Positions 32,512-48,301 of a stretch of 64,000 nucleotides of DNA are shown piece by piece. Made by a program: the position numbers and the translations under genes. The notes under the pieces were generated by a model, which worked only from the letters and a program-made list of their open reading frames with translations, searched no databases and was not told the origin of the DNA. Source of the DNA: Hydrogenophaga sp. (GTDB lineage: Bacteria; Pseudomonadota; Gammaproteobacteria; Burkholderiales; Burkholderiaceae_C); assembly GCF_018780075.1 (NCBI RefSeq), contig NZ_JADMKB010000003.1, forward strand, positions 124,001-188,000. The letters run 5' to 3'. Numbering within the stretch: the first letter of the stretch is position 1; each line of letters starts with the position of its first letter.

Positions 32512-32603
32512 GGACGCTTCCTTTGGGCTGGGGGTGGTCTGAAACGCGAACGTCTGCGGGGTGAATTAGAGGGAAGAGACCATCAAATGGGGCGGATACG
32601 TCT

Positions 32604-32960
32604 TTATTCAACAGGTTCGCTCAGGCATTGCAGCGGATGACCTGCGCCACGGGCCGCTGCCAGCACCTGATCGACCTTGGTGCCAGCCACATCGCGGGAA
32701 TACACCCCGCAGATGCCTTTGCCTTCAAGGTGGATCTTCAACATGATCTGGGTCGCGGTCTCGCGGTCCTTGCTGAAAAATTCCTGAATCACATGCACCA
32801 CGAACTCCATGGGCGTGAAATCGTCGTTGAGGAGCACCACCTGAAACATCTGCGGCGGTTTGACTCGCTGCGTGCGACGCTCAAGCACCACCGAGTCGTC
32901 ACTGCCCACGCCGGGTGGCAAGACGGGATTGGGAGGTTTTTTCGGATTCTGGGTCGCCAT
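32604..32960 (-). CDS. clpS: ATP-dependent Clp protease adaptor ClpS
   Basis: 118 residues. Core motif [18 protein letters not shown] at about 41-58 gives the N-degron pocket residues (N-D-D, M), followed by [11 protein letters not shown]. Delivers N-end-rule substrates to ClpA. ATG 32960 gives the usual MATQ-type start; an ATG three codons upstream and a long open frame beyond it are not supported by family length. Confidence 0.94.
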
Positions 32961-33321
32961 GAAAACCATTCTAGCGGTCCCGCCCGAGCATCCCCGCGGT
33001 GGGGACAAATGGTGGAGCGAATCGCCACGGATGGGCTGGAAAGGGCCCGGGATGGCGCATGGCAAGGGCGGGTCGGCATGGTCTGATTGTGGGCCGCCCG
33101 GCAAGTTCAAAACCACCGAGTAAGCGCACTTCCAGGGGGTATATGTGATTTTTAAGGCATTGACGGCGGTGGACCGAGGTGGGGATCGCCCCCTCAGCGA
33201 TCGGCCGACCGCCAGCCACCCCAGCGGTTCGGCCATGTCCGACCGATGGCGGCTCCCCAGCCGTGCCCCTGCCCGGCTCGCCAGCCGAGAGGGTTCCCCG
33301 GGGTTCGCCATCGCCACGGGA
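32961..33321. other. 361-bp gap between clpS and nifQ
   Basis: No gene is supported here. It marks the left edge of the nif region: clpS upstream sequence on one side, nifQ 3' end on the other, both minus strand. It contains GC-rich inverted segments that could fold but no clear T-tailed terminator, and an AT-rich patch near 33137-33160 (GTATATGTGATTTTTAAG) that may carry the clpS promoter. I cannot define its elements. Confidence 0.5.
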
Positions 33322-33780
33322 TCAGCCGCCCGATGACGCGTTCACCAGGGTCGCTCGCGGTTCAAGGCGATCTGGCGCACCCAGCTCCGGGCCGAAACAC
33401 ACCCCATGATCGGAACAGTCGCCGCAGCTGGGCGACTTGCAGATCAGGATCTCTTCCCGTTCGCACAGCTGGCGGTAGAGAAACTTCTTCCACCTCATGT
33501 TCTGCGTGTTGCGCGCGGCCAGCGCGGGAAAGATGTGGGCGATCAGCGCCGACAGCGCCTCGCGCGACGGCATGCCCAGGTCCTGCCACAGGTGCCGGTC
33601 CCCCAGGGTGGCGCAGGCCAGCGTCCACGACAGCTCCAGGCGCTCGGCCGACGTGGTCGCCGAGAGGTCGGCATGCGCCAGCAACAGGCTCTGCACCTCG
33701 TCCACCTCGTCGCGTCGCACGCGGATCAGCGGCTCCAGGGCGGCCCAGTCGGGAGCAGGTTTCACCAGCAGCGTGGCCAT
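33322..33780 (-). CDS. nifQ: NifQ, molybdenum donor for FeMo-cofactor synthesis
   Basis: 152 residues, a little shorter than most NifQ. The diagnostic C-terminal cluster C114-x4-C119-x2-C122-x5-C128 ([15 protein letters not shown]) binds an Fe-S/Mo cluster. NifQ supplies Mo to the NifE-N/NifH assembly complex. Last gene of the nifE-to-nifQ operon, 6 bp after fdxB. Confidence 0.9.
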
Positions 33781-33786
33781 GGCCGC

Positions 33787-34101
33787 TCACGCCGCCGGGG
33801 CCGCGGCGTGCGTGTAGCACTTTTTCGGGCAGATCTTCGAGCAGGCGGTGCAGCCGATGCACAGCTCCTGGTGCGCGATGGTCATGACCTTCTTCTCGTA
33901 TTCCTCGTCGTCATCATCGTCGTCGAGGCTGACCGAGATGCGCTCGCCCTCGTCGGTCAGGCCCACGAGTTCGAGCACGCCGCGCGGGCAGACCTTGAAG
34001 CAGCGGCCGCAGCCGATGCATTTTTCCTCGTCGAGCGAGGCCACAAAAGTCGGCGTCCAGGTGGCGCCGCTGGGCAGGGTGACGCTGAAATGTTCGCTCA
34101 T
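33787..34101 (-). CDS. fdxB: Nif-specific ferredoxin III (2 x [4Fe-4S])
   Basis: 104 residues. Two clusters: C28-x2-C31-x2-C34-x3-C38-P and C81-x2-C84-x2-C87-x3-C91-P, plus C95. The segment between them contains a run of six Asp followed by Glu (residues 60-67). This family occurs only in nif clusters next to nifX/nifQ and is thought to give electrons to nitrogenase or to cofactor assembly. ATG 34101 begins [10 protein letters not shown]. Confidence 0.93.
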
Positions 34102-34140
34102 GAGACAAACTCCTTGGCGGTGTGAGCGGCTTCGTGCAAG

Positions 34141-34214
34141 GCACCCGTGGAACCGGCTGTGCCGGGCCACCAGGTGCGTCCCCGTGGGGGAAGACGCGAA
34201 GCGGCGCAGGGGGA
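34141..34214. repeat. Dispersed GC-rich intergenic repeat
   Basis: CACCCGTGGAACCGGCTGTG...CCGGG, then CCCCGTGGGGG, then GACGCGAAGCGGCGCAGGGG. Ends two bases before the DUF683 stop, filling the gap to fdxB. One of six copies; see findings. Confidence 0.8.
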
Positions 34215-34412
34215 TCAGGTGATGGCGGCGACGGCCTTGCGCAGGTCCATCAACGTGGCGTGGGTGTCGTGGCAGCGCTGGGCCACCGAGAGGATGTTTT
34301 CCCACCCTGTCGGCAGGTCCTCGGACAGGTCGTGCAGGTCCATCTTGGCCTGCGTGGCCTGGGCGTTGGCCTTCTTCAGGCGCGCCTTGAGTTCGTCGGT
34401 GGTTTCACTCAT
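34215..34412 (-). CDS. Small nif-associated DUF683/CCE_0567-type protein
   Basis: 65 residues from ATG 34412: two predicted helices ([30 protein letters not shown] and [12 protein letters not shown]). This Rop-like helical hairpin (PF05082) is found next to nifX/DUF269 in many diazotrophs; a cyanobacterial member binds metal. Exact role unknown. A His and Cys pair (C-H-D-T-H) could be a metal site. Confidence 0.88.
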
Positions 34413-34460
34413 GGTGATACTCCAAAGGGTACAGATCGAGCGAAGTGACTTCGCCGGGAA

Positions 34461-34512
34461 CACCGCGGAACCGGCTTTGCCGGGCCGCAGGTGTTGCCCC
34501 CTTGAGGGGGGA
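34461..34512. repeat. Dispersed GC-rich intergenic repeat, truncated
   Basis: CACCGCGGAACCGGCTTTGC...CGGGCCGCAGGTG followed by CCCCCTTGAGGGGGG, but lacking the GACGCGAAGCGGCGC arm. Lies between DUF683 and DUF269 genes. Confidence 0.75.
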
Positions 34513-34555
34513 TTCGGCTACACGCAGTGAGCAAGAAACGGGGGTGGGCTCCATT

Positions 34556-35044
34556 TCAGGCTCCGTATTGAGCAACTGCGGGGAACTCGCGGATCATGGC
34601 AACGGCCTCGGTCAGGAACTTGCTGCCCGCGTCGGACAGCTTGGCCAGCGAGGGGAAACCGAAGCGGTGCACGTCGCGCAGCTGCTTGTTGACCACCACC
34701 AGGCGGCCGGCGATCAGCACCATGCGGCCAAAGCCTTCGTGGCTCATCTTCATCATGGGTGAAACCATCTGGCCGGTCTCGCGCTCGATCGCCACCGCGA
34801 TGGCGTTGTAGAAGATCTCCAGGTGCCACAGCGTCTCAGGGTCCGGGTCGCCCATGATGGGCAGCGCGCGACGTTCCTCCTCGGTGTGGATGAAGGGCTT
34901 GAGCAGCTGCAGGTCGGTCTTGCCTTCCCAGCTGCCGTGCGTGTCCTGCGCGCGCATCTGCTTGATCAGCTGCTGCACGAAGGGCGTGGTGAGAAAAGCC
35001 TCATCGCTCTCAGGCGCGAGTTCGGGGGTGGCGGTGGCGTTCAT
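34556..35044 (-). CDS. NifX-associated nitrogen fixation protein (DUF269)
   Basis: 162 residues. [19 protein letters not shown] near residue 22 and the later [17 protein letters not shown] are typical of DUF269 (PF03270), which is always linked with nifX. Probably helps FeMo-cofactor maturation or trafficking; no catalytic motif is seen. ATG overlaps the nifX stop by 4 bp. Confidence 0.92.
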
Positions 35045-35451
35045 GGGGTGACCTCGTCGTCTTCAAAATCGAATGCGCGTTCTTCGTCCTTGGCCAGGGC
35101 CTTGCGCAGCCAGGGCGGCGGCGTGCCTTGCAGCACGGCCTGCAGCTTGTCCAGGATCTCGTTGATGTTCTCGGGCTGCGGCACCTTGATCGGGTGGATC
35201 TTCATGGCCACGACACGCGCCGCGCCCGAGCCTCCGATGGCCGCCACATAGAGGATCGCGCAGTCCTTGATGGCCTCGAGCTTGGGTGCGAGCTTGTCCT
35301 CGTCGCCGTCTTCTTCGAGCTTGTCGCCGAACTCGAAGCTCTCGACAAACTGGTGGCCGGCGGCCGAGATCTCGTAGACAACGATGCTCTTGGCCCAGCC
35401 GAAGTGCGCGTCCACGCGCTCCTTGTCCTGGGTGGCGAAGGCGATCTTCAT
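35041..35451 (-). CDS. nifX: NifX, FeMo-cofactor/NifB-co carrier
   Basis: 136 residues: [20 protein letters not shown], with the conserved His16 and the [14 protein letters not shown] fold of the dinitrogenase iron-molybdenum cofactor-binding family. It shuttles cofactor precursors between NifB, NifEN and NifDK. An acidic loop E-E-D-G-D-E-D is visible. 140 bp separate it from nifN; a repeat and a possible sigma-54 site lie there. Confidence 0.94.
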
Positions 35452-35485
35452 GGCGTTTCTCCTGGGTGGGTCAAAAGTTCCTGAA

Positions 35486-35501
35486 TGCAGACGCCGGTCC
35501 A
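35486..35501 (-). promoter_or_regulatory. Weak sigma-54-like site before nifX
   Basis: Minus strand TGGACCGGCGTCTGCA keeps the essential GG and GC at the right 10-bp spacing but differs from TGGCAC-N5-TTGCA elsewhere. It is about 35 bp before the nifX ATG. It may be chance. Confidence 0.3.
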
Positions 35502-35504
35502 GAG

Positions 35505-35580
35505 CACCCGTGGAACCGGCTTCGCCGGGCCACAGGGTGCGTCCCCCTGCAAGGGGGAAGACGCGAAGCGGCGCAGGGGG
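35505..35580. repeat. Dispersed GC-rich intergenic repeat, full copy
   Basis: Best full copy: CACCCGTGGAACCGGC TTCG GCCGGG-type hairpin closed by CACCC/GGGTG, then CCCCCTGCAAGGGGG, then GACGCGAAGCGGCGCAGGGG. Sits between nifN (downstream end) and nifX. Confidence 0.85.
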
Positions 35581-35591
35581 TGTCTCATATT

Positions 35592-36995
35592 TCAGGCGCT
35601 GGCGGCTGCCAGCTGGGTGGATGGGAGGCGATCGCTGCCGCTGCCGTCGAGCCGGCGTGTGGCGAGCTGCGCTTCGGGCGTGAGCGGCCAGTCGCCTGCG
35701 TGGTGGTGGGCGATGCGCTGAATCATCAGGTTGGCGATTTCAAAGATCAGGTTCATGGTGCCGCGGTAGCCCACGCTCACCTTGTGCGCGTTGCCGATGC
35801 GGTCGAACACCGGAAAGCCCACGCGCAACAGCGGTTTGTCCAGGCGCTCGGCGGCCTGCCGGCCATGTGAATGCGTGACCAGCAGGTCGCAGTCGGCACC
35901 AGCGGTCTCCAGGTCTTCGAGATCGCCGAGCAGCACCTGCTCGGCCGGCAGCAGGGCATGGGCGGGCGACTGCGTGGTGCTGATGCAGCACTTCAGCTCG
36001 GCGCCCATGTCGTGCAGCAGACCGCCCAGGGCCAGCAGAAGGTCGGGCTCGGCGGCGATGGCCACCTTCACGCCACCGGTGTAGAAATGGCCGTCGAGCA
36101 TGGCGTCGAGCAGCTGGCTGCGCTGACGCCGGTACTTGGCCGGCACGGGCTTGCCCGACAGCTGCGAGAGGCGCAGCAGGAAGCGGTCGTTGCAGGCCAG
36201 GCCGGTCAGGCGCTCGAAGATCTCCAGCGGCGTGCCGGCGATGGCTTCCAGCGCCTCGGCGCCTTCGCGCGTCTGCTCGCCGATGCCCAGCGTGAAGGCC
36301 GAGGCGCCCGCGGCGCGGATCTGCTCGAGCGTCGTACCGCCCAAGGTGGTGCCGCGCCAGTCGGGCGCGATGTGGCCGTCGAGCGAGCCCGAGATGTCGG
36401 GCAACACGATGGGGTTCAGGCCAAAGGCCTGGACGATCTCGCGCAGCTCGTCGATGTCGCTCGGCGTGAGGTGGCTGCCGGGCAGCAGTGTGACCTGGTC
36501 AGCCACCACCGGCAGCGGTTTGACCAGCGCCTTGGCGATGGCGGTGATGGCGTGTTTGAAGCCGTCTTCGAACGCGCCCACGTAGTCGGGCGTCGACACG
36601 TACACGATTTCCGTGTCGGCCAGCTCGGGGTGGCGCTGGCGCGCGGTAACGAGGTAGCCGTCGACGTCGTCACCCTTGGTTTCGGTGAGACCGGTGGAGC
36701 AGATGGCAATCACCTGGGGCGCATTGCGTTTGCGGATGTTGAGCAGCGCCGCTTCGAGGTTCTCGTAGCCACCCATGATGGTGGTGACCTCGTTCATGGC
36801 CGTGGTCTGCAGCGGGATCGCTTCCTTGAAATGGCGCACCAGCAGCACCAGGCCAAACGAGGTGCAACCCTGCGAGCCGTGCATCACCGGCATGCAGGCG
36901 TCCAGCCCCAGAAAGGCGAAGCTCGCGCCCAGCGGCTGGCTCATCTTGAGCGGGTTGACGGTGCAGGCTTTTTTGGATTCGACGACGCGTGCCAT
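35592..36995 (-). CDS. nifN: NifN, FeMo-cofactor scaffold beta subunit
   Basis: 467 residues, NifK paralogue. N-terminal cysteines in K-K-A-C-T-V-N-P-L-K-M-S-Q-P-L-G, H-G-S-Q-G-C-T-S-F and A-I-C-S-T-G-L-T-E-T correspond to the P-cluster ligand positions that in NifEN hold a [4Fe-4S] cluster with NifE. With NifE it forms the heterotetramer on which NifB-co is matured into FeMo-co. 24 bp after nifE. Confidence 0.97.
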   Translation of the reverse strand: MARVVESKKACTVNPLKMSQPLGASFAFLGLDACMPVMHGSQGCTSFGLVLLVRHFKEAIPLQTTAMNEVTTIMGGYENLEAALLNIRKRNAPQVIAICSTGLTETKGDDVDGYLVTARQRHPELADTEIVYVSTPDYVGAFEDGFKHAITAIAKALVKPLPVVADQVTLLPGSHLTPSDIDELREIVQAFGLNPIVLPDISGSLDGHIAPDWRGTTLGGTTLEQIRAAGASAFTLGIGEQTREGAEALEAIAGTPLEIFERLTGLACNDRFLLRLSQLSGKPVPAKYRRQRSQLLDAMLDGHFYTGGVKVAIAAEPDLLLALGGLLHDMGAELKCCISTTQSPAHALLPAEQVLLGDLEDLETAGADCDLLVTHSHGRQAAERLDKPLLRVGFPVFDRIGNAHKVSVGYRGTMNLIFEIANLMIQRIAHHHAGDWPLTPEAQLATRRLDGSGSDRLPSTQLAAASA

Positions 36996-37019
36996 GACTG
37001 TGCTTTCGGTGCGGGTGAA

Positions 37020-38522
37020 TCAGACGGGGATTTCTTCGGGCTCCAGGCCCATGGCCTTGGCGGCGACTTGGCTCAGGTGATCGGTGGACGTTGCTGTCAC
37101 GGTGGGCGTGACAGCGCCCAGGGTTTCGCCGTCGTCGCCCCAGGGCGCGGGGATGCGCACCTGCTGCCACACCGGGTTGAAAATGGCGCGGTCAATCTCG
37201 TGCACCAGCTCGACCATGCCCTCGTAGCCGCCGTAGGGGTGGTGGCGTTCCTGGTTGATGTCCAGCCAGGGCATGCGCGCCTTGAGCGCCACGAACTGCG
37301 AACGGCCGCCGCTGAGCATGATGTCGGCGCGCGCTTCTTTCAGCATGGCGTACATCTCGCGCGGCGTCATGTCGTCGATCATGTGGGCGTCGGCGCCCTC
37401 GCCCATGATCTCCTTGATTTTTTCCTTGTCTTCCTTGGTGCTCTTCTTGACGCTGGTGCCGACGATTTCCATGCCGCCCTCCTGCAGCGCGGCCACCACC
37501 GACCAGGACTTCACGCCACCCGTGATCAGCAGCACGCGCTTGCCCTGCAGGCGCTTCTTGTATTCGGCGATGCGCTTGTAGGCGCGCGCTTCTTCCACCT
37601 CGATCAGGCGCTCGGTGCGCTCGATGAGTTCGGCGTCGGCGCCCTGCTTCACCAGCAGACGCGCGATCTCGCGCAGGGTCTCGCTCATGTCGCTGATGCC
37701 GTAGAACGAACCTTCGAAATACGGGATGCCGTAGCGCTGCTCCATCTTGGTCGCGATGTTGATCATCGACTTGGAGCACACCATCATGTTGACCTTGGCG
37801 CGGTGCGCGCTGGCGATCTCGTTGTAGCGGCCGTCGCCCGAGATGCACGAGAGGATGCGGATGCCCAGCGCATCGAGCAGCGGCTTGACCTGCCAGAGTT
37901 CACCGACCAGGTTGTATTCGCCAATGATGTTGATGTCGTAGGCGGTGGTGTACTCGGGCTCGACGGTGCCGATCACGTAGTCCAGGATGGCTTCGGCGCC
38001 GAGCTTGTTGCCCAGGTTCTTGGGGCCAGCGAAGCCGGGCGCGTTGACCGGGATCACCGGCTTGCCGAACTTCTCGGCGGCGCGCTTGCACACGGCTTCG
38101 ATGTCGTCACCGGTCAGCGCGGTGACGCAGGTCTGGTAGACGAAGACCGCGGGCGGGTCGTACTTTTCAATGATCTCGCGGATGGACTTGAACAGGCGCT
38201 TCTCACCGCCGTAGATCACGTCGAGCTCGTTGATGTCGGTGGTGAAGCCGCTGCGGTAGATGGTGGAGCCGCTGGACGCGCTGTGGCGGTTGTCCCAGGA
38301 GTTGCCTTCGCAGGCGATGGGGCCGTGCACCAGGTGGGCCACGTCGACCACGGGTTGCAGCGCGATCTTGGCGCCGTCGAAAGCGCAACCGCCCGCCGCC
38401 GCGCCGGGTGAGAGCTGCTTGGTGCAGCCCTTCTTGCGTTCCTTCTCGCTCTTGCCCTGGTTGATGTCACAGCCGGGCTCTTCGAACACTTCGGCGATCT
38501 TGGCCTTGAGCGATACAGACAT
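37020..38522 (-). CDS. nifE: NifE, FeMo-cofactor scaffold alpha subunit
   Basis: 500 residues. Start region E-P-G-C-D-I-N-Q-G-K then G-C-T-K-Q-L-S-P-G-A-A-A-G-G-C-A-F-D-G-A (C33, C46), H-G-P-I-A-C-E-G-N-S-W-D, and C-I-S-G-D-G-R-Y-N-E-I, the NifE counterpart of the FeMo-co region. First gene of the nifE-N-X-DUF269-DUF683-fdxB-nifQ operon with its own sigma-54 promoter 34-49 bp upstream. Confidence 0.97.
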   Translation of the reverse strand: MSVSLKAKIAEVFEEPGCDINQGKSEKERKKGCTKQLSPGAAAGGCAFDGAKIALQPVVDVAHLVHGPIACEGNSWDNRHSASSGSTIYRSGFTTDINELDVIYGGEKRLFKSIREIIEKYDPPAVFVYQTCVTALTGDDIEAVCKRAAEKFGKPVIPVNAPGFAGPKNLGNKLGAEAILDYVIGTVEPEYTTAYDINIIGEYNLVGELWQVKPLLDALGIRILSCISGDGRYNEIASAHRAKVNMMVCSKSMINIATKMEQRYGIPYFEGSFYGISDMSETLREIARLLVKQGADAELIERTERLIEVEEARAYKRIAEYKKRLQGKRVLLITGGVKSWSVVAALQEGGMEIVGTSVKKSTKEDKEKIKEIMGEGADAHMIDDMTPREMYAMLKEARADIMLSGGRSQFVALKARMPWLDINQERHHPYGGYEGMVELVHEIDRAIFNPVWQQVRIPAPWGDDGETLGAVTPTVTATSTDHLSQVAAKAMGLEPEEIPV

Positions 38523-38555
38523 GTCGGACTCCAGACGGTGGGTTGAGAGTCACTC

Positions 38556-38571
38556 TGCAAGTTGGGTGCCA
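38556..38571 (-). promoter_or_regulatory. Sigma-54 (-24/-12) promoter of the nifE operon
   Basis: Minus strand TGGCACCCAACTTGCA matches the consensus TGGCAC-N5-TTGCA at every fixed base. Expected start near 38545, giving a leader of about 23 nt before the nifE ATG at 38522. No TGT-N10-ACA site was found in the 240 bp upstream. Confidence 0.88.
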
Positions 38572-38656
38572 GGCTTTTTTCAGGCTTTTGGGCCGGTTTT
38601 TTGGCGATCTGTGGCGGGTTTGAAGGGAATGTCGCGGGCGCTTTGCGACAGGGGGC

Positions 38657-39136
38657 TCATCGACCCAGCGGTAGCTTCTGGCCGCTGCGGTGCAAGGCGA
38701 TCCAGCGCTCCAGCTCGGCCACGTGCTGCGCCTCTTCTTCCACAAACTCTTTCGCCAGCACCTTGATCTCGTGGTCGGTCGTGGTCTGCAGCACGTTGTC
38801 GTAAAACGCCAGACCGGCGCTCTCGGCGTCGAGCGCCACCTGCAGCGCCTGCTCGATGCCGATGAAAGGATCGGCGGCCCAGATCGCGGCGGCTTCGGGG
38901 CTTTCGATGTCGGGCCACTGGTAGTCAGCTTCGCTCAACGTGGGCAGGTTGCGGTAGCCGGCGCGTTCGCGAGCGTCGCCCAGGTGCAGCAGCGAGTAGT
39001 CGGCCAACTGGCGGAACAGCTGGGCCACCTCGGTGTTGCCGGCCGTTCGCATGGCGTCGGCGAGCTGGCCGAAGCGCAGCGCGGCTTCGTTCTCCAGCTG
39101 GATGGTGTGGGCCAGAAATTCTTCTACGGATTCCAT
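38657..39136 (-). CDS. Ferritin/rubrerythrin-like diiron protein in nif cluster
   Basis: 159 residues from ATG 39136 (GAGGAACAC just before it). Four-helix bundle pattern with diiron ligand motifs: helix A L-E-N-E-A-A-L-R-F, then L-L-H-L-G-D, helix C A-L-D-A-E-S-A-G-L-A-F-Y and C-terminal E-F-V-E-E-E-A-Q-H-V-A-E-L-E. ExxH in E-E-A-Q-H supports metal binding. Such proteins may store iron for cofactor assembly or reduce peroxide. 134 bp before nifE, 14 bp after the preceding gene. Confidence 0.75.
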   Translation of the reverse strand: MESVEEFLAHTIQLENEAALRFGQLADAMRTAGNTEVAQLFRQLADYSLLHLGDARERAGYRNLPTLSEADYQWPDIESPEAAAIWAADPFIGIEQALQVALDAESAGLAFYDNVLQTTTDHEIKVLAKEFVEEEAQHVAELERWIALHRSGQKLPLGR

Positions 39137-39150
39137 GATGTGTTCCTCGG

Positions 39151-39507
39151 TCAAAAACCCAATTCGAACCAGGCAGGCTCTTTGTGGCGCAGCTGGGCGA
39201 TCAAATCCAGCGTGGCCGGCACCAGGGCGTGGATGCCGTACCAAACCTCTTCGCGACGCGGCTGGCCGTCGCCCTCCAGCAACTGCTGCAGGTGCGCCCA
39301 GCCGTGCCAGTCGATCTGCACCAGGCGCAGGCGCAGCGGCTCTGGCCAGTGCGCCAGGGTCTGCGCCATGCGCAACAAATGCATCTCCACGCAGGCCAGG
39401 GTGTTGGCGCTGGCGAACAGCTCGTCTTCGCCCTGCAGCTCGGCGAGCAGGCTTGTCATGACCTCGCCGCTGTTCTGCAGGATCAGGTACTGCATGCGGG
39501 CGATCAT
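39151..39507 (-). CDS. Uncharacterised nif-cluster protein, 118 aa
   Basis: No recognised family. Mostly helical, with many Leu and several Trp/His (L-A-H-W-P-E-P-L-R-L-R-L-V-Q-I-D-W-H-G-W-A-H-L-Q-Q-L-L-E). No signal peptide, Cys motif or membrane helix; one Cys only (T-L-A-C-V-E-M-H). Its start overlaps the AAA-ATPase stop by 4 bp, so it is translationally coupled and probably works with that ATPase. A second in-frame ATG four codons later is also possible. Confidence 0.75.
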   Translation of the reverse strand: MIARMQYLILQNSGEVMTSLLAELQGEDELFASANTLACVEMHLLRMAQTLAHWPEPLRLRLVQIDWHGWAHLQQLLEGDGQPRREEVWYGIHALVPATLDLIAQLRHKEPAWFELGF

Positions 39508-41210
39508 GGTGTGCTCACCGGGTCCAGCCCGCGGAACATGGCGCAGCGCAAAAACACCTCGCGGCTCGCGTCCACCTGCTTGTGGCGGCAGTACTTGGCG
39601 ACCAGCTTGGCCAGGCCCTTGATGTCGCGCCCGGTCGCGGCCGGGAACAGATCGGCCAGCATGCCCGGCATGGCGGGCGCCAGATCCAGACCGAACTGTT
39701 CGCCCATCACACCCCAGATGCGCGCGCGGGCGGCCGCGTCGGGCGGGTGGTAGCGGATCAGTGCGATGCAGCGCGAGACGATGGCTTCGTCGATGTCGTC
39801 GACGCGGTTGGTGGTGAGGAACAGCAGGCCGTTGAAATACTCCAGCACGCGCAGGAAGACGCCCACCACAGCGTTCATGGTCAGGTTGTCGTCGCGCTTC
39901 TTGATGTAGACGTCGGCCTCGTCAATCAGCAGCACCGCGCCCCAGCGCTGGGCGCGCTGCAGCACCTCTTTCAGCGCCGTCTCCATGGTGGCCACGTTCA
40001 GGCCGAGCTGGCCCGAGTGCACCCGGTACAGCGGGCGCTGGATGTTCTCGGCGTAGACCTCGGCGGTGAGCGTCTTGCCCACGCCGGGCGGGCCGGCGCA
40101 CAGCACCGTGGTGCCGCCCGACTTGCCCGCGATGATGTCGTCCATCAGCACGTCCATCTCGGCGGTCAGGATGTCGATCAGGTCGGTCTGCTCGGGCGGC
40201 AGCACCAGCAACTGCTTGAGCTGGGGTTTGTAGGCGTAAGGCTCGAGGTCGTCCACGTGCACCCAGACATGGTGGTGCAGCTCCAGGTGGAACATCAGGA
40301 TCAGCGGGTGCACCGGCAGCTGGCGGAACAGGCGGGGTCGGTCCTGCAACGCGGCCTTCAGCGCCAGCACCTCCTGCTCGGCGTCGTATTGGCTGCTCTT
40401 GGCGGCCTTGTTCAGGTAGTTGGTGAGCAGCTCACCCGGGGTTTCCAGGCTGGTGTCGCGCTGCTGCAGCACGGCTTCGTCGTTCACCAGGCGCGCCGCT
40501 TCACCCTGCGCCGAGAGGATCACGATGTCCTTGCGCAGCCAGTCGCTGTCGCGGTGGGTGGCGCTCGGGTCGGACGCGTGATAGGCCAGGCCGCGGCCGA
40601 GGAACTGGGCACCGCTTTGCGCACGCCAGTCGAAGTACGTGGCCACCGAGCTTTCATACGCGCGCAGCAGCTCAGGTATTTCGCGCACCAGGCCACGCGC
40701 GAGCAGCAGCTCGGCCACGCTGCGGCCGATCACGTCGTTGCCCGAGAGGCGCAGGGTCTGGTTCACCAGCCCACCCTTGGCGTTGGCCTTGAGGTCGATG
40801 GTGACCTTGCCGGTTTCGTCGTTCGAGGGCGGTGTGTAGTCGATGCGTGTCGGGCACCAGGCCAGCGGCACGCCGTCGGTGTCGGCGCTGAACAGCCAGC
40901 CGTGGGTGCTGCCCTCGGCCAGGTAGGCCACCAGGGCGGGCACCACATCTTCCAGCGTGTCGGCCGTGAAGCGCTGGGCACCGGGTACGCCGAGCAGACC
41001 CCGCAGCGAACGCAGCTGCACGGCGCGGCGCTGCTGGGCCGGGCCGCCTGCGTCCCAGAGCTGGTCAAGCCGGTCCAGCACCGGCGCACTGAGCAAGCGC
41101 AGCCGGGTCTCGGCGTGTTGGCCGAAACGCAGCTGGTCCGTCAGACCGGCCAGCTCGGGGAATTCCCCGGCCAGGGTCTGGGCATGGGGGCGTTCGATGC
41201 GCAGCTTCAT
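39504..41210 (-). CDS. AAA+ ATPase with large unique N-terminal region, nif-linked
   Basis: 568 residues. Residues 1-340 match no domain I know. The C-terminal third is a classic AAA module: Walker A G373-P-P-G-V-G-K-T380, Walker B V-L-L-I-D430-E431, sensor-1 F-L-T-T-N468-R, arginine finger in I-V-S-R480 and a helical lid. It resembles single-ring remodelling ATPases of the clp/CbbX/MoxR-like world but I cannot place it. Start ATG 41210 gives M-K-L-R-I-E-R-P. Coupled with the 118-residue protein downstream and 19 bp after a 161-residue protein. Likely remodels a nif protein or cofactor complex (inference). Confidence 0.8.
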   Translation of the reverse strand: MKLRIERPHAQTLAGEFPELAGLTDQLRFGQHAETRLRLLSAPVLDRLDQLWDAGGPAQQRRAVQLRSLRGLLGVPGAQRFTADTLEDVVPALVAYLAEGSTHGWLFSADTDGVPLAWCPTRIDYTPPSNDETGKVTIDLKANAKGGLVNQTLRLSGNDVIGRSVAELLLARGLVREIPELLRAYESSVATYFDWRAQSGAQFLGRGLAYHASDPSATHRDSDWLRKDIVILSAQGEAARLVNDEAVLQQRDTSLETPGELLTNYLNKAAKSSQYDAEQEVLALKAALQDRPRLFRQLPVHPLILMFHLELHHHVWVHVDDLEPYAYKPQLKQLLVLPPEQTDLIDILTAEMDVLMDDIIAGKSGGTTVLCAGPPGVGKTLTAEVYAENIQRPLYRVHSGQLGLNVATMETALKEVLQRAQRWGAVLLIDEADVYIKKRDDNLTMNAVVGVFLRVLEYFNGLLFLTTNRVDDIDEAIVSRCIALIRYHPPDAAARARIWGVMGEQFGLDLAPAMPGMLADLFPAATGRDIKGLAKLVAKYCRHKQVDASREVFLRCAMFRGLDPVSTP

Positions 41211-41229
41211 GGCCGTGGATCGGTGAGGA

Positions 41230-41715
41230 TCAGTTGTCGTCGGCCAGCACTTCCAGCGCGACCAGCTGTTCGTAGAGCGCGCGCCGCGCGTGCCAGAGCG
41301 CTTTGCCGGCGATGCGCGGGTCGGCACCTTCAAATGCGCCGATGGCGTCGCGGTCGCCGCGGTAGACGCAGGTGAGCCCGCCGCGCGCGGCCAGCGCCGC
41401 TTCGAGTGCCGCGGCCTCGCTCACCGGCTCGGCGCTCAACACGCCGCTGCCGAGCAGGTGGTCTGCCCGGTACAGCGGCGCGTCCCAGCCGTGGCTGTCG
41501 CCGAGCGTGCAGATGGCCGGGTAGCGTTCGCGCGCCAGCGCATCGACCTCGGCGTGGCCGATGTCTTCCAGCAGTTCGCGCGGGCTCAGGCTGTCGAAGA
41601 TTTCCCACGGCTGCAACGCATCGCCAGCCTCGACCTTGCGGGCGAAGTCGGCCTCGTCGTAGGCGAACCAGGCGCGCGGTGCGGCTTGTTCGGGCACTTC
41701 CACCACATAGATCAT
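41230..41715 (-). CDS. Uncharacterised nif-cluster protein, 161 aa
   Basis: Begins M-I-Y-V-V-E-V-P-E-Q-A-A-P-R-A-W-F-A-Y-D-E-A-D-F. Mixed alpha/beta composition, acidic, soluble, no Cys cluster, no export signal. A segment H-A-R-R-A-L-Y-E-Q-L-V-A-L-E near the C-terminus looks helical. It lies immediately upstream of the AAA ATPase (19 bp) and after a repeat-filled gap, so it may be the first gene of the AAA module. I do not recognise a family. Confidence 0.72.
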   Translation of the reverse strand: MIYVVEVPEQAAPRAWFAYDEADFARKVEAGDALQPWEIFDSLSPRELLEDIGHAEVDALARERYPAICTLGDSHGWDAPLYRADHLLGSGVLSAEPVSEAAALEAALAARGGLTCVYRGDRDAIGAFEGADPRIAGKALWHARRALYEQLVALEVLADDN

Positions 41716-41814
41716 GGTTTTCTCCGTGGCCGCGAACGGCGCTGGTTCAATGCCAATTCAGATTTCAATACCGCCAGACCACAGGCCCTGCGCCTGAAGG
41801 GGAGCGCCCTAGGG

Positions 41815-41886
41815 CACCGCCGGGCCGGCTTTGCCGGACGGCCAGTGCCGCCCCCTTGAGGGGGGCGCGCGAAGCGCGGCGGGGGT
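41815..41886. repeat. Dispersed GC-rich intergenic repeat
   Basis: CACCGCCGGGCCGGCTTTGC...CCGG, then CCCCCTTGAGGGGGG, then GCGCGAAGCGCGGCGGGGG. Fills the space between two uncharacterised nif genes. Confidence 0.8.
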
Positions 41887-41892
41887 GGGCCA

Positions 41893-42267
41893 TCACTCCA
41901 CGCCTTCGGCGGCGGTCTTGGCCCAGACCGCTTTTCTGAGGCGCTGCGTGATGCCGGCGGGGCTGGCATCGAACTGCCGCTGCGCAATCGACAGGGCGCC
42001 CTGGGCCACCGCCGCTTCAGGCAGGGTCAGGGGCAGGCGACCCGCCACATGGGTCGCGCCCAGCACCGCCTTGGCGATCGCCTGGCGGTTCGGGTGCTCG
42101 TCCATGGCGATCAGGTTGTCGGCCTCGCGCACACCACCCAGACACACCCAGCCGTCGATCACCTCGACCTTGCGGCCGTCCTGCGTGGTCTTGATGTAAA
42201 CCGCCTCAAGGGCCATGCTTCCCGACCCATCGGGCGCCGGTGCTGTGGGGGTAGCGGGCGTGTTCAT
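41893..42267 (-). CDS. Uncharacterised nif-cluster protein, 124 aa
   Basis: Ala/Pro-rich first 18 residues, then A-V-Y-I-K-T-T-Q-D-G-R-K-V-E-V-I-D-G-W-V-C-L-G-G-V-R-E-A-D-N-L-I-A-M-D-E-H-P-N-R-Q-A-I. Soluble; one Cys. The N-terminal extension suggests the real start could be the ATG at residue 18 (M-A-L-E-A-V-Y). Two bases separate it from the Shethna-type ferredoxin, so the two are one unit. No family recognised. Confidence 0.72.
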   Translation of the reverse strand: MNTPATPTAPAPDGSGSMALEAVYIKTTQDGRKVEVIDGWVCLGGVREADNLIAMDEHPNRQAIAKAVLGATHVAGRLPLTLPEAAVAQGALSIAQRQFDASPAGITQRLRKAVWAKTAAEGVE

Positions 42268-42269
42268 GA

Positions 42270-42617
42270 TCAGAACTTCACGACGATGTCTTCATTGCGC
42301 ACGATGAACTGGCAGGCCAGGCGCCACGGGGGCGGCAGGTCCTTGGTTTCGGCGTCGGTGATCTGCTGCGCCGTGATCTTGCCGGCCAGCTTCAACACGG
42401 TCTTCTCTTTTTCCGTCAGCGCCACGCCGTGCGGCGTGTTGCCCGACAGCACGGTCACCTGCAGCTGGCAGGAACCGCACTCGCCGTTCTCGCACTCGAA
42501 ATCCAGCGGAATGTCGTTGGCCTTGGCCACCGCCAGCAAGGTCTTGGTATCCCCCGCGATGGCATAGACCGTGAGGTCCTTCTTCATCCGCGGAGAACTG
42601 AATGTCACGTTGGCCAT
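42270..42617 (-). CDS. 2Fe-2S ferredoxin of the Shethna protein II (FeSII) type
   Basis: 115 residues. Plant-type cluster ligands C42-x4-C47-x2-C50 and C102. The frame opens M-A-N-V-T-F-S-S-P and has L-T-E-K-E-K-T-V-L-K, D-L-P-P-P-W-R-L-A-C-Q and a D-I-V-V-K-F end, which from memory closely parallels the Azotobacter Shethna protein II. FeSII forms an O2-stable inactive complex with NifH and NifDK (conformational protection). First non-structural gene after nifK; the intervening gap holds a repeat copy. Could also be a simple electron donor. Confidence 0.82.
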   Translation of the reverse strand: MANVTFSSPRMKKDLTVYAIAGDTKTLLAVAKANDIPLDFECENGECGSCQLQVTVLSGNTPHGVALTEKEKTVLKLAGKITAQQITDAETKDLPPPWRLACQFIVRNEDIVVKF

Positions 42618-42686
42618 AGGGCACCTCTAGAAAGATAAAAACTCCGACCGAGGCAGCACCAGACAAGCGAAGGGGAGCTCACCCAG

Positions 42687-42760
42687 TGCCGCCGCGGAAC
42701 GGGCTTTGCCCGGCCGCCAGCGGCGCCCCCTGGGGGGTGACGCGAAGCGGCGCGGGGGGA
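42687..42760. repeat. Dispersed GC-rich intergenic repeat
   Basis: GCCGCCGCGGAACGGGC TTTGC CCGGCC-type hairpin, then CCCCCTGGGGGG, then GACGCGAAGCGGCGCGGGGG. Lies just past the nifK stop. Confidence 0.8.
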
Positions 42761-42764
42761 GCAC

Positions 42765-44324
42765 TCAACGAATGATGTCGTAGCTGTAGTCCGTCTTGCC
42801 GGGGATGATCGTGTTCGCATCCAGCGTCTCGAAGAACTCGTCAAGCAACGTGACCAGCACGCGCATGCCGCCTTCGTAGCCCCAGGTGGGGAAACGGTGG
42901 TAGTGGTGGCGATCGAAGATCGGGAACACCATGCGCACCAGCGGCGTCTTGGTGTCGCGCTCCAGGTACTTGCCGTAGGTGTTGCCGATCAGGAAGTCCA
43001 CCGGCTCGGTGAACAGCAGCGAACGCAGGTGCCACAGGTCGCGCTTGGGGTAGACCTTGCAGCCGGCGCCGTAGGGCGACGAGTCGAACAGCTCCTGCAC
43101 CTTCTTGGCCCAGGTTTCGGTGCCGTTGGTGGCCAGCACGTGCGAGGGTTCGGCGCCGAGTTCCAGCAGGAACTGGGCGTAGCCGAGCATCTGGTCCGGA
43201 TCGCCGTAGAGGGCGTAGCGCTTGCCGTGCAGGTGGGCCTGGCTGTCGGCCATGGCGTCGACCAGCTCACCGCGTTCTTTTTCCAGCTCGGCCGGGATCG
43301 GCTTGCCGGTCAGGCGCGAGATTTCCATCAGGAACTGGTCGGTGCCGGCGACGCCGATGGGGGCGTTCAGCGTGACGACTTCCTGGCCGTGTTCGGCGAT
43401 GAACTTGCTGGTCTTCTCGCAGCAGAACTCCTGGAACACGATGGTCGCCTTGGCGTGCAGGGCAGCCACGACTTCCTCTTTCGAGGTGCCACCGGCGTAC
43501 ATGCGGAACTCACCGTCGGTGGGCGTGTTCCAGTTGCCGCTCGGGTCGCAGATCACGTTGACCTTGACACCGAACAGATCAAAGATGCGGCGGATTTCCT
43601 TCATGTTGCCGACGACGTAACCGTCGAAGCCACCGATGAAGTTGATGCTCTCGTCGGGCACGCGCACCAGCGGTTCGGTGGTCTTGGCCTTGCCGTCCCA
43701 GAAGTGGCGCAGGATGCCCAGCAGCGCGTTGTCGTAGCCGGTGATGTGGCTGCCGACGAAAGCCGGGGTGTGAGCAAAGGGCACGTCGAACTCGTCGGGC
43801 ACGCTGCCTTTTTGCTTGCTGGTCTTGATGAAGGCGTCGACGTCGTCACCGATCACTTCGGCCATGCAGGTGGTCGAGACGGCAATCATGTCCGGCTTGT
43901 ACAGGCTGTAGGCGTTGGCCAGGCCGTCGACCATGTTGTTCAGGCCACCGAACACCGCCGCGTCTTCCGTCATCGAAGAGCTCACGCAGGACGTGGGTTC
44001 CTTGAAGTGGCGGCTGAAGTGTGAGCGGTAGTAGGCCACGCAGCCCTGGCTGCCGTGCACGAAGCTCAGCGTCTTCTGGAAACCGTTGGCCACGTACACG
44101 GCGCCCAGCGGCTGACAGGCCTTGGCCGGGTTCACCGACAGCGAATCGCGGGCGAAGTTCTTCTGTTTGTAGTCTTCGGTCTTGGTCCACTCGACGATCT
44201 GCTTGATGGATTCGTCGCTGTGGTTGAACTCGAATTCCGCTTTCTTGTTGCGGAAGATGTCCTGGTACTCGGGCTCACGGAACAGCAGTTCGTGGTCGAG
44301 GATCTTGTCGGCTGATTGGGGCAT
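42765..44324 (-). CDS. nifK: Nitrogenase MoFe protein beta subunit
   Basis: 519 residues. P-cluster cysteines C70 ([10 protein letters not shown]), C95 ([10 protein letters not shown]) and C153 (S-T-T-C-M-A-E-V) occur at the same positions as in Azotobacter. The following Ser/Thr-rich [13 protein letters not shown] is also conserved. Forms the alpha2-beta2 tetramer with NifD. 71 bp after nifD. Confidence 0.98.
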
Positions 44325-44395
44325 GGTGCTCTCCAGAGGATGTTGAAATTCAAGGAGCGGACGACCGGCTCTTGCCAGGCCGCCCGCAGTCTTCT

Positions 44396-45859
44396 TCAGG
44401 CGGCCTTTTTCCAGGGCGCTTTGGTCAGGCCCCAGATGGGAGAGCTGATCGCCATGTCCATGTCACGGGCGAAGATGGCGAAGCCGTCGTAGCCGTGGTA
44501 GGGGCCGGAGTAGTCCCAGCTGTGCATCTGGCGGAAGGGCACGCCCATCTTCTGGAACACGTACTTTTCCTTGATGCCGGAGCCGACCAGGTCGGGCTGA
44601 ACCTGCTCGACGAACTTCTCGAATTCGTAGCCGGTCACGTCGTCATAGATCAGCGTGCCGTCCTTGACGTAGTGCGTGGTGCGCTGGTAGTCGTCGCCGT
44701 GGCCGAATTCGTAGCCGGTGCCGACCACGTCCATGCCCAGGTCTTCGTAGGCGCCGATCACGTGGCGCGGACGCAGACCGCCCACGAACAGCATGACCTT
44801 CTTGCCCTGCAGGCGCGGCTTGAACTTGTCGATCACGGCCTGCATCAGCGGCTTGTACTTGGCGATGACCTCTTCGGCCTTGGCCTTGATGCTGTCGTCG
44901 AAGTGGCTGGCGATTTCGCGCAGGCTCTTCTCGATCATGGTCGGGCCGAAGAAGTTGTATTCGACCCATGGCATGCCGTACTTCTCTTCCATGTGGCGGC
45001 TGATGTAGTTCATCGAGCGGTAGCAGTGCAGCACGTTGAGCTTGGCCTTGGGCGTGTTCTCGATCTCGGCGATGGTGCCGTCGCCGGACCACTGGGAGAT
45101 CACGCGAAGGCCCATTTCTTCGAGCAGGATGCGGCTGGACCAGGCGTCGCCACCGATGTTGTAGTCGCCGATGATGGCCACGTCGTAGGGCGTGGAGACG
45201 AACTCGGGGCGCTTGTTCGGGTCGGTGCGGTCGAACACCCAGTCGCGGATCGCGTCGTTGGCCAGGTGGTGGCCGAGCGACTGGCTCACGCCGCGGAAAC
45301 CTTCGCAGCGCACGGGCACGATGGTTTTGCCTTCGTACTCTTTGCTCTTCTTCTTGGAGACGGCTTCGATGTCGTCGCCGATCAGGCCGATCGGGCACTC
45401 GGACTGGATCGAGATGCCCTTGTTCAGGGGGAACAGTTCCTGGATCTCGTCGATGATCTTGTCGAGCTTCTTGTCGCCACCGAAGACGATGTCCTTTTCC
45501 TGGAAATCGCTGGTGAACTGCATCGTCACGAAGGTGTCGATGCCGGTGGTGCCGATGTAGTAGTTGCGGCGCGCGGCCCAGGAGTACTGGCCACAACCCA
45601 CGGGACCGTGGCTGATGTGGATCATGTCCTTGATGGGGCCCCACACCACGCCCTTGGAACCGGCGTAGGCACAACCACGGATGGTCATGACGCCCGGCAG
45701 GGACTTGATGTTGGACTTGACGCCGCAGTCCGGCTTGCCTTCTTCGAACGAGCCCAGGTGCTTCGCCCTGCGCTTGGCCATCTTTTCGGGATAGGCCTTC
45801 AGCACTTCATCGATCAAGGCTTTGTTCGTGGCCTTGCGGTCTTCAACTGTGGCAGTCAT
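44396..45859 (-). CDS. nifD: Nitrogenase MoFe protein alpha subunit
   Basis: 487 residues from ATG 45859. P-cluster ligands C63 (I-R-G-C-A-Y-A-G), C89 (G-P-V-G-C-G-Q-Y) and C155 (S-E-C-P-I-G-L); FeMo-cofactor ligands C279 ([10 protein letters not shown]) and H446 ([11 protein letters not shown]). F-V-G-G-L-R-P-R-H and G-Y-E-F-G-H complete the molybdenum-type pattern, excluding vanadium or iron-only nitrogenase. ATG four codons upstream in-frame is less likely. Confidence 0.98.
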
Positions 45860-45901
45860 GGGTAACTCCAATGGATATTTGGTTTTGCGTGAGATTCAAG
45901 G

Positions 45902-45932
45902 CCGACCCGCCGGCACACGCCAGACGGGTCGG
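45902..45932 (-). other. nifH-nifD intergenic stem-loop
   Basis: CCGACCCG (45902-45909) pairs with CGGGTCGG (45925-45932) around a 15-nt loop. No T run follows. Such hairpins after nifH can protect or process the transcript so that NifH is made in excess over NifDK. Confidence 0.55.
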
Positions 45933-45945
45933 ACTCGTGGGCCGC

Positions 45946-46920
<975 letters not shown>

Positions 46921-46972
46921 TTATTGCTCTAGGTTCACGTCGGCCGGACTGGTGTCCGCGCACCCTCCTCTC

Positions 46973-46988
46973 TGCAGCTTCCGTGCCA
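46973..46988 (-). promoter_or_regulatory. Sigma-54 (-24/-12) promoter of nifHDK
   Basis: Minus strand TGGCACGGAAGCTGCA: TGGCAC-N5-CTGCA with GG and GC correctly spaced. Expected transcript start near 46962, about 120 nt before the nifH ATG. Confidence 0.88.
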
Positions 46989-47007
46989 TGCTGTTTCGCC
47001 CCTGTTT

Positions 47008-47023
47008 TGTCGCCCTTGAAACA
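47008..47023. promoter_or_regulatory. NifA-type upstream activator site
   Basis: TGT CGCCCTTGAA ACA, the TGT-N10-ACA consensus. It is too close (20 bp) to the nifH -24 box to loop well there but 145 bp upstream of the opposed globin -24 box. Confidence 0.6.
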
Positions 47024-47083
47024 GGAGCGCTACAGAGGGAAAACTGCCGTTTTTGAAACGCCATCCGGCGCGCGCTGGCGCTT

Positions 47084-47099
47084 TGTTCTGTTCCCGACA
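47084..47099. promoter_or_regulatory. NifA-type upstream activator site
   Basis: TGT TCTGTTCCCG ACA, exact TGT-N10-ACA. It lies about 96 bp upstream of the nifH -24 box, the usual distance for NifA, and about 70 bp from the globin promoter. Confidence 0.75.
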
Positions 47100-47167
47100 A
47101 AACGGCGAAATCCGTCGCAAACAAATCGTGTCAGCGGGTCGCCGCGGCGGCTTTGTGTCGCATTTGG

Positions 47168-47183
47168 TGGCCCCTGATCGGCA
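47168..47183 (+). promoter_or_regulatory. Sigma-54-like promoter of the globin/draTG operon
   Basis: TGGCCCCTGATCGGCA keeps GG and GC ten bases apart with T before GG and A after GC, but C replaces A at the fifth base and C-G replaces T-T. Expected start near 47194, about 25 nt before the globin ATG at 47220. Confidence 0.6.
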
Positions 47184-47219
47184 AATCCGCCTGGTACGGT
47201 CATTGCTGTTTAGAGAGGC

Positions 47220-47678
47220 ATGAACCTGCCCCACGCGCTCCCCACCGCACCGCTCGCGCCGCCCTCGCACTTTGAAGCGATCGGCGGCCAGACGGCCGTG
47301 GACCGCCTGGTGGACGCCTTCTATGCGCAGATGGACAGCCGCCCCGATGCCACGGGCATCCGCGCCATGCACGAGCCCGATCTGGGCCACACGAAAGCCG
47401 TGCTGCGGCTCTACCTGGCCGAGTGGCTGGGCGGCCCCAAGGGCTACACGGCGCAGCGCGGCCACCCGCGCCTGCGCATGCGCCATGCGGCCTTCCCCAT
47501 CGGCGTGTTGGAGCGCGACGCCTGGCTCGCCTGCATGGGCGCGGCCATGCAGCAGACCGGCGTTCCCCCCGACCTGCACCGTGTGTTGATGGTGGCCTTC
47601 TTCAAGACCGCCGACTTCATGCGCAACACCCCACACCCCCCGGCAACCCCTGCCAACAACCCGAAGGAAGCTTCATGA
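47220..47678 (+). CDS. Group II truncated haemoglobin
   Basis: 152 residues. Globin signature: F-E-A-I-G-G-Q-T-A-V-D-R-L-V-D-A-F-Y, then L-G-G-P-K-G-Y, H-P-R-L-R-M-R-H89 with H89 the probable haem-iron ligand, and the group-II Trp W102 in R-D-A-W-L-A-C-M. First gene of the plus-strand accessory operon under a NifA/RpoN-type promoter; likely role is O2 or NO handling near nitrogenase. GAGAGG lies very close to the ATG, so translation may be weak or start slightly later. Stop overlaps the next ATG. Confidence 0.9.
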   Translation: MNLPHALPTAPLAPPSHFEAIGGQTAVDRLVDAFYAQMDSRPDATGIRAMHEPDLGHTKAVLRLYLAEWLGGPKGYTAQRGHPRLRMRHAAFPIGVLERDAWLACMGAAMQQTGVPPDLHRVLMVAFFKTADFMRNTPHPPATPANNPKEAS

Positions 47679-48280
47679 CCACCCTGGCCACCAAAGAGAT
47701 CGACGACACCGGGCTTGCCCGCCTGGAGAGCGAAGGCCGCCTGCTCAACCCGCTGCTCAAGGCGCCCACCAGCAAGTTCGGCCGGGTGGGCTTTCGCGGT
47801 GAACTCGCGCTGCGCTTTGCGCCCAAGCTGGCCGACGAAGCGCGCCCGCCCGAACTGATGTGCCCACAGGTCATGGCGATCGGCACCGTCGGCGAAAAGA
47901 CCCTGCCCTTCTTCGCCGGCTACCTGCTGAGCTTCGAGAACCTGAAAGACGTGGCCGAGGTGCTGGGCGACTCGCTGAGCGCGGGCGGCAAGTACTTCCT
48001 GTTCTGCAACAACATCGACCTCTCGAAGAAGTACCAGGTGCCGTACAAGGGCGCGATGTTCTATGTGCTGCCGATCGACGAGTCCACGGTCTACAACGAG
48101 ATGCTCGACCTGCTGTACCTCGAAAAGAACGACCTGAAGAAAAAAGACACCGCCGGCAAGCTCGACGCCGTGGCCGACGCCGCGCTGAAGTTCGACGTCA
48201 CCTTCGACACCATCACCTACGCAGAGGGTTTGACGCTGATGGGACCGGTGCGCAACCCGAACGAAAACCGCCCGGTCTGA
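47675..48280 (+). CDS. Uncharacterised protein between globin and draT
   Basis: 201 residues. ATGA overlap with the globin gene; AAGGAAG upstream. Soluble, mixed alpha/beta, with L-M-C-P-Q-V-M-A-I-G-T-V-G-E-K-T-L-P-F-F-A-G-Y-L-L-S-F-E-N and K-Y-F-L-F-C-N-N-I-D-L-S-K-K-Y. Two Cys, no cluster motif, no export signal. Its place suggests a role in nitrogenase regulation or protection; I recognise no family. Confidence 0.78.
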   Translation: MTTLATKEIDDTGLARLESEGRLLNPLLKAPTSKFGRVGFRGELALRFAPKLADEARPPELMCPQVMAIGTVGEKTLPFFAGYLLSFENLKDVAEVLGDSLSAGGKYFLFCNNIDLSKKYQVPYKGAMFYVLPIDESTVYNEMLDLLYLEKNDLKKKDTAGKLDAVADAALKFDVTFDTITYAEGLTLMGPVRNPNENRPV

Positions 48281-48301
48281 ATCCGTCCACCTGAGCCGGC
48301 C

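Follow-up and report, generated by a model that had tools for sequence, protein, structure and literature searches.

Background

Protection and turnover of nitrogenase in aerobic diazotrophs are poorly understood, and the engineering of nitrogenase into other hosts requires that its helper proteins be known. The genes that usually follow nifK encode NifT, NifY/NafY and NifX, and the nif cluster of Azotobacter vinelandii encodes an AAA+ ATPase, ClpX2, together with the nif genes. PMC2607301 describes a homologue of the ferredoxin FeSII in Acidithiobacillus ferrooxidans, located two open reading frames downstream of nifK, for which conformational protection is proposed, and PMC12585515 treats the FeSII-nitrogenase structure. 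Two AAA-type ATPases linked to nitrogenase genes appear in other reports, a putative vnf-linked one with altronate dehydratase features (PMC4465626) and a predicted one in the nif cluster of Chlorobi that is tied to a retrotransposon (PMC7341956). Here we describe a set of six minus-strand genes that occupies the nifK-nifE interval of a Hydrogenophaga contig, around one AAA ATPase gene, within an analysed stretch of 64,000 nucleotides (the window).

This ATPase most likely acts in nitrogen fixation, because its distribution follows that of nifD even when its gene lies far from nifHDK, and it most likely remodels a protein client, since its AAA domain is joined to an N-terminal domain of its own and a small protein is repeatedly encoded next to it. 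The explanation that we favour, with a probability of roughly 0.45, is that it is dedicated to nitrogen fixation, probably works as an AAA ring and remodels nitrogenase or another nif protein, with small proteins as co-factors. No description of this nif-linked ATPase was found in the open-licence literature, most subscription papers being outside the search, and the set is provisionally regarded as undescribed.

Gene set between nifK and nifE

The set and its borders are as follows (aa, amino acids):

44324-42765, minus strand: nifK (named from its sequence), 5' border of the set
42617-42270, minus strand: FeSII (Shethna protein II)-type [2Fe-2S] ferredoxin, 115 aa (5ffi_A match and PF00111)
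42267-41893, minus strand: p124, 124 aa, in no Pfam, NCBIfam or PADLOC family (family alignment)
41715-41230, minus strand: p161, 161 aa, in no Pfam, NCBIfam or PADLOC family (family alignment)
41210-39504, minus strand: AAA ATPase, 568 aa, with a ca. 340-aa N-terminal domain and a C-terminal classic AAA domain (PF00004)
39507-39151, minus strand: p118, conserved protein of 118 aa (family alignment)
39136-38657, minus strand: ferritin-like or rubrerythrin-type protein, 159 aa (PF02915; PDB 2oh3)
38522-37020, minus strand: nifE (named from its sequence), 3' border of the set

The start of the ATPase is the ATG common to its homologues, which gives the 568 aa. The unusual AAA gene group on the nif strand that a sequence-only reading of this DNA had pointed out is thus found where it was placed, all on the minus strand, with six genes instead of the seven claimed. 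The tight packing seen by that reading holds for part of the set: the AAA stop and the p118 start overlap by 4 bp and short gaps separate FeSII from p124 (2 bp), p118 from the ferritin-like gene (14 bp) and p161 from the AAA gene (19 bp), but this overlap is the only one and larger gaps occur at three places (nifK-FeSII, 147 bp; p124-p161, 177 bp; ferritin-like-nifE, 134 bp). Likewise, p118, p124 and p161 are indeed without an assignable family, whereas the ferredoxin and the ferritin-like protein, also held to be unassigned, can be assigned.

Read along the minus strand, the genes are nifH, nifD, nifK, FeSII, p124, p161, AAA, p118, ferritin-like, nifE and nifN, followed by nifX, DUF269, Rop-like, fdxB-like and nifQ. 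The genes nifX, DUF269, Rop-like, nifQ and nifD were assigned by profile, and nifH, nifK, nifE, nifN and fdxB were named from their sequences. Three Hydrogenophaga loci (L067-L069) have the six genes in identical order between nifK and nifE, so that the arrangement is not due to chance. Relatives keep it with losses: no p118 match was found in Rhodoferax (L071), no FeSII match in L070 and in Variovorax/Pseudacidovorax (L072-L074), and no ferritin-like match in the latter three loci.

A GC-rich intergenic repeat of ca. 85 bp was also observed in five nif gaps (34134-34217, 34452-34504, 35497-35584, 41806-41858 and 42681-42763); between nifK and nifE it is present in two of the three larger gaps. 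Since the genome has at least 43 matches to the copy at 42681-42763, that copy counted, the repeat is a dispersed REP-like element.

Distribution of the ATPase

When the window's order, by inference Burkholderiales, was queried with the N-terminal part of the ATPase in a sample of 399 genomes, strong matches (over 300 bits) occurred in 20, of which 19 have nifD over the family cut-off; 56 genomes of the sample are nif+ by this measure and the association has a Fisher p of 6e-17, kinship ignored. The sole strong carrier without a nifD match is a draft (G157) that has p118, p161 and p124 as well. The weak or partial matches in G048, G094, G141, G180 and G358 were excluded from the carriers; G358 alone of these genomes is nifD-positive, its ATPase match being a 78-aa fragment with a stop, and the other four are without a nifD match. 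Within the genus Hydrogenophaga it is rare, a full-length ATPase match occurring in 2 of 24 genomes, that of the window included.

The family of Bradyrhizobium BTAi1 (139 genomes) comprises 13 carriers and 36 genomes with nifD over the cut-off, 11 being both. Two carriers have no nifD over the cut-off: G463, which has a nifD fragment, and G805, which we equate with the metagenome-assembled genome of locus L075, whose contig carries families that we take for nif genes. In a class sample centred on BTAi1 (G465; taken as Alphaproteobacteria), no carrier was found among the 288 other genomes, counted regardless of nifD. Among relatives at large the best 80 of 336 were kept and 50 of these 80 loci were used for a nif check of the carrier genomes; nifD exceeds the cut-off in 43 of the 50 and a strong nifD- or nifE-like match is present in 48. 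The titled carriers among the best 80 include aerobic methanotrophs, Derxia, Azorhizobium, Beijerinckia, Rhodoblastus, Dechloromonas, Thiobacillus, photosynthetic Bradyrhizobium and Hydrogenophaga, the last being the closest with 96-98% identity. The ATPases of L067-L074 share 75-98% identity with that of the window, those elsewhere about 58-65%. Any of nifH, D, K, E or N falls within the flanks of the ATPase in only 21 of 82 loci, the gene being thus often far from nifHDK. Two loci, L108 (Methylosinus sporium DSM 17706) and L084, lie in genomes without a nifD match, for which recent loss, gaps or a different role of the ATPase may account.

Small partner proteins

None of p118, p124 and p161 matches a Pfam or NCBIfam family, the NifT, NifY/NafY and NifX families included. 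Their distribution was followed in 80 genomes of the order, of which 56 are nif+ and 24, G157 among them, nif-; the sample excludes G053, G223, G395 and G396, which are nif+ but partly assembled, and 28 of the 52 controls planned for the nif- side. The p118 family is present in 26 of the 56 nif+ genomes, six of these matches being weak (E 2.7e-7 to 6.9e-4), p161 in 13 and p124 in 6, and each in G157 but in none of the other 23 nif- genomes; for p124 alone this is not significant (p 0.17), the nif- sample being small. All seven p124 genomes have p161 and the two genes are adjacent by coordinates in six. As for p118, it occurs in 14 of 20 genomes with the ATPase as against 13 of 37 nif+ genomes without it (p 0.015).

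All three partners are clustered with the ATPase in 14 of the 82 loci, in several orders. Wherever the p118 family was clustered (22 loci), it abuts the ATPase gene in 17, always on the same strand, being downstream in eight loci, all of the Comamonadaceae clade with L070, and upstream in nine of another clade. In Thiobacillus/Sulfuriferula the order is p118, AAA, a 95-aa protein, a 55-aa protein, p124, a short p161 and a flavin amine-oxidase-type protein. The AAA gene is also often accompanied by genes for a nitroreductase-family protein, which in 12 cases lies immediately upstream, and for a Rieske protein, a GST and a fumarylacetoacetate-hydrolase-type protein, each family being named from one scanned representative.

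It is unlikely, in our view, that these genes have no common function and are independent accessory genes of the nif regulon that became neighbours as nif islands move and shuffle together. The partners do exist without the ATPase, neighbours vary widely and a second p118 on the window's contig stands beside a flavin amine-oxidase-type gene instead; however, separate clades repeat the clustering of the four genes with their order rearranged, and p118 directly adjoins the AAA gene on either side.

Side observations on these families concern the 95-aa and 55-aa proteins (L055, 11271-11555, and similar loci), which often stand behind the AAA gene and have no Pfam match in the one representative of each scanned, and the short form of p161, which lacks the middle ca. 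55 residues (L097 12564-12875, L127 12563-12874, L139 12564-12875 and L134 6382-6681). The second p118 paralogue is located past the window end (L157 11709-12056; G000:C38:199708-200055), and G080 has four p118 matches, one of them likewise beside a flavin amine-oxidase-type gene.

Domains and phylogeny of the ATPase

PF00004 covers residues 369-482 (E 2.8e-18; 67.1 bits against a gathering score of 21.2), and the protein has the Walker A GPPGVGKT, the Walker B LLIDEAD and the arginine finger SRC of classic AAA proteins, together with an intact GRDIK sensor-2 region. At the place of pore loop 1, aligned by eye, SGQLGL is invariant in 60 alignment rows. The 60 PDB sequence matches shown all fall at about residues 359-552, and the first ca. 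350 residues have nothing above a curated cut-off in Pfam or NCBIfam. Modelled separately, the N-terminal 345 residues gave a pLDDT of 86.9 and a pTM of 0.82, with no PDB structural match below E 0.29. Confidence in the full-length model is low over the AAA core (pLDDT below 50 at residues 340-477), so that the AAA fold matches of this model rest mostly on the lid. The sequence style also resembles that of a large uncharacterised fungal/actinobacterial AAA family.

In a quick tree with six plasmid or nif-less relatives as contrast group, the nif-linked ATPases are separated as one clade by a long branch (3.47 changes per column, SH-aLRT 99), and this clade shares a HRDTDWSRKDVVVLS-type insertion missing from these six. 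G227 has, ca. 4 kb beyond the complete AAA gene, a further copy that is incomplete (L050 14273-14998).

It is highly improbable that the ATPase is a defence-type protein, IetA or TRIP13-like, parked in the nif island. PADLOC matches to both (E 8.8e-13 and 2.1e-7, respectively) exist over the AAA domain, but they reflect the general AAA core only and the distribution is nif-linked; no search of the neighbourhoods for defence partners was made.

FeSII and ferritin-like proteins

The ferredoxin aligns over residues 1-115 with residues 1-115 of A. vinelandii FeSII (5ffi_A, E 8.5e-30), ligand cysteines included, and FeSII occurs in 48 of the 56 nif+ and none of the 24 other genomes of the partner sample. 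The 159-aa protein belongs to the rubrerythrin/ferritin-like family (PF02915, E 3.9e-8; 34.2 bits against a gathering score of 22.8) and matches PDB 2oh3, labelled COG1633, with E 9.2e-22. This family is clustered in eight loci, seven of them near the ATPase; the gene is a local neighbour only.

Promoters and probable transcription

Two sigma-54 matches frame the region:

46973-46988, minus strand: sigma-54 type promoter match, 10/11, upstream of nifH and directed towards nifHDK and the gene set
38556-38571, minus strand: perfect sigma-54 promoter match, 11/11, between the ferritin-like gene and nifE

Just upstream of the first are two of the four TGT-N10-ACA sites of the window (47008 and 47084). 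Between the two promoter sites no further sigma-54 match of at least 10/11 was found, and the region 33000-47300 has neither a sigma-70-type promoter (1.3 expected by chance) nor a minus-strand terminator-like site. Because no internal promoter match or terminator-like site was detected, the six genes would, on the simplest reading, be the downstream end of one transcript that begins with nifHDK; the 11/11 site is the putative start of a separate nifEN transcript.

The divergent run (47220-52451, plus strand), with its own sigma-54-like site at 47192, encodes a truncated globin, a 201-aa protein without Pfam match, draT, draG, a nitroreductase-family protein and a rhodanese-ankyrin protein. 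In other loci the AAA gene often has members of the nitroreductase-like and 201-aa families in its neighbourhood.

Proposed function

In the favoured explanation the ATPase would probably form an AAA ring whose own ca. 340-aa N-terminal domain, aided by p118, grips nitrogenase or another nif protein, and ATP would drive the pulling by which a complex that is stalled, inhibited or mis-assembled becomes usable; accessory client or adaptor proteins are the roles proposed for p124 and p161. Probably made with nifHDK and FeSII from the sigma-54/NifA-type promoter of nifH, the ATPase would be present when nitrogenase is made, and this probable co-transcription puts mature nitrogenase slightly ahead of the cluster assembly branch as client. 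The least certain part is the occasion, which may be recovery from O2 stress, e.g. release from the protective FeSII-nitrogenase complex. A link to O2 protection, drawn from genomic company and the lifestyle of the carriers, both weak, is only suggestive, because FeSII does not track the ATPase.

Several observations weigh against this explanation. Only 19 of the 56 nif+ genomes of the order carry the ATPase gene, which is therefore dispensable for fixation in general, and among the 50 further carriers two genomes, G435 and that of Methylosinus sporium DSM 17706 (G450), show no strong nifD- or nifE-like match. No small partner is nearby in 55 of the 82 loci, several of which are near-copies or short contigs. 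FeSII is present alike in genomes with the ATPase (16 of 20) and in nif+ genomes without it (32 of 37), and is thus a general nif companion, not the particular partner of the ATPase. The client, the ring and the activity are moreover what we infer for the protein. In the 60 rows, the aromatic-hydrophobic-glycine pore loop 1 of classic AAA unfoldases, a trait of those that thread their substrates, is absent; with SGQLGL in place of the aromatic residue, the work cycle may differ from theirs.

The same absence bears on a role as quality-control unfoldase delivering damaged nif proteins to a protease, like ClpX2 of Azotobacter. The AAA core does resemble FtsH, proteasomal Rpt and CDC48, and clpS and a ClpA-type gene (30175-32949, minus strand, the nif strand) directly follow nifQ in this window, as either chance neighbours or a link to nif protein turnover, which adds a little weight to such a role. 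Such a role is nevertheless quite unlikely given the missing aromatic loop and the lack of any protease or ClpX-type domain (Pfam, NCBIfam) in the ATPase; no protease is annotated among 36 features around the Methylococcus plasmid ATPase, most other neighbourhoods not having been searched for proteases.

Finally, the genes around the ATPase on the plasmid of Methylococcus EFPC2, annotated as isc genes, nifV, nifW, grxD (glutaredoxin) and bolA, would also fit cofactor assembly. The ATPase might then serve metallocluster assembly or insertion (isc/nifUS branch, NifEN, NifB), remodelling scaffold-client complexes so that clusters move on. A similar gene run, read by eye, accompanies the M. capsulatus copy, a Fe-S_biosyn protein is among the following genes in Azorhizobium/Rhodoblastus-type loci, where we take further following families to be NifU-C, NifS, NifT and NifB, and in the window the ATPase precedes nifEN. 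There is, however, no fixed pairing with any single assembly gene, and many loci have flavin oxidoreductases, a Rieske protein or a GST as neighbours instead; we regard this role as somewhat unlikely.

The sequence-only reading had taken the module for a nif-specific remodelling machine with adaptors and an iron protein, a view that finds support in part. There is strong support for its nif-specificity, since p118, p124, p161 and the ATPase clade are nearly confined to nif+ genomes, and the outcome it had named as adverse, homologues mostly in non-diazotrophs, did not occur, carriers being almost all nif+. A second adverse outcome, partners scattered without the AAA gene, occurred in part, as shown by p118 in the 13 ATPase-less nif+ genomes and by small proteins in several diazotrophs without the ATPase. 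A physical machine is putative, and repair, protection or loading of nitrogenase would be its candidate tasks. Of the iron proteins, the ferritin-like one is a local neighbour and FeSII a companion of nif genes in general. As a conserved nif-linked gene, the ATPase is a concrete candidate for deletion, and its distribution suggests an unstudied helper of the nitrogen-fixing machinery.

Comparison with known systems

Plasmid-borne AAA relatives annotated as ATP-binding proteins (e.g. NC_008826.1 of Methylibium PM1 and NZ_CP147131.1, an E. coli plasmid) have an N-terminal and an AAA domain like the ATPase and share with it the LY.(V/I)H.G.LG region, the arginine finger in (S/P)RC and the RDIK sensor-2 region. 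Listed plasmid records other than the nif-type Methylococcus copy have 32-41% identity to it, and the two that were inspected have no nif genes annotated around them. Like four chromosomal relatives, both are without the HRDTDWSRKDVVVLS-type insertion and separated from the nif clade by the long branch. The N-terminal fold also resembles that of giant-virus AAA family ATPases (Klosneuvirus A0A1V0SHU6 and others; Foldseek E 6.2e-7, probability 1.00), with a TM-score of 0.37 by query length, a root-mean-square deviation of 12 and 13% identity, and no functional link.

Three known identities do not fit the ATPase. For ClpX, no zinc-binding N-domain or ClpX profile was present among 11 Pfam families to E 1 or the 25 best NCBIfam families. 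For MoxR/CbbQ/NorQ, which are AAA of AAA_5/AAA_3 type with a VWA partner, AAA_5 scored 15.1 bits, below its cut-off of 22, and no VWA match was found in 10 window proteins scanned. For IetA/TRIP13, matches are limited to about residues 355-540, with none beyond the AAA domain.

CDC48/VCP, Rix7, Vps4, spastin and FtsH match the ATPase in the AAA core only; unlike classic AAA remodellers, it is without the aromatic pore loop 1, and it has a single AAA domain. ClpX2 of A. vinelandii belongs to a different AAA family. With conformational protection by A. vinelandii FeSII the set shares its first gene, yet FeSII is known alone and its distribution does not follow that of the ATPase. Should FeSII protection need an active release step, the ATPase would be a candidate for it. 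By analogy, one might even think of a nitrogenase activase, with p118 as adaptor, that dismantles FeSII-nitrogenase filaments or dead-end complexes of Fe protein and MoFe protein, an idea to which we give low odds; as Rubisco activase restarts Rubisco, such an activase would restart nitrogen fixation after O2.

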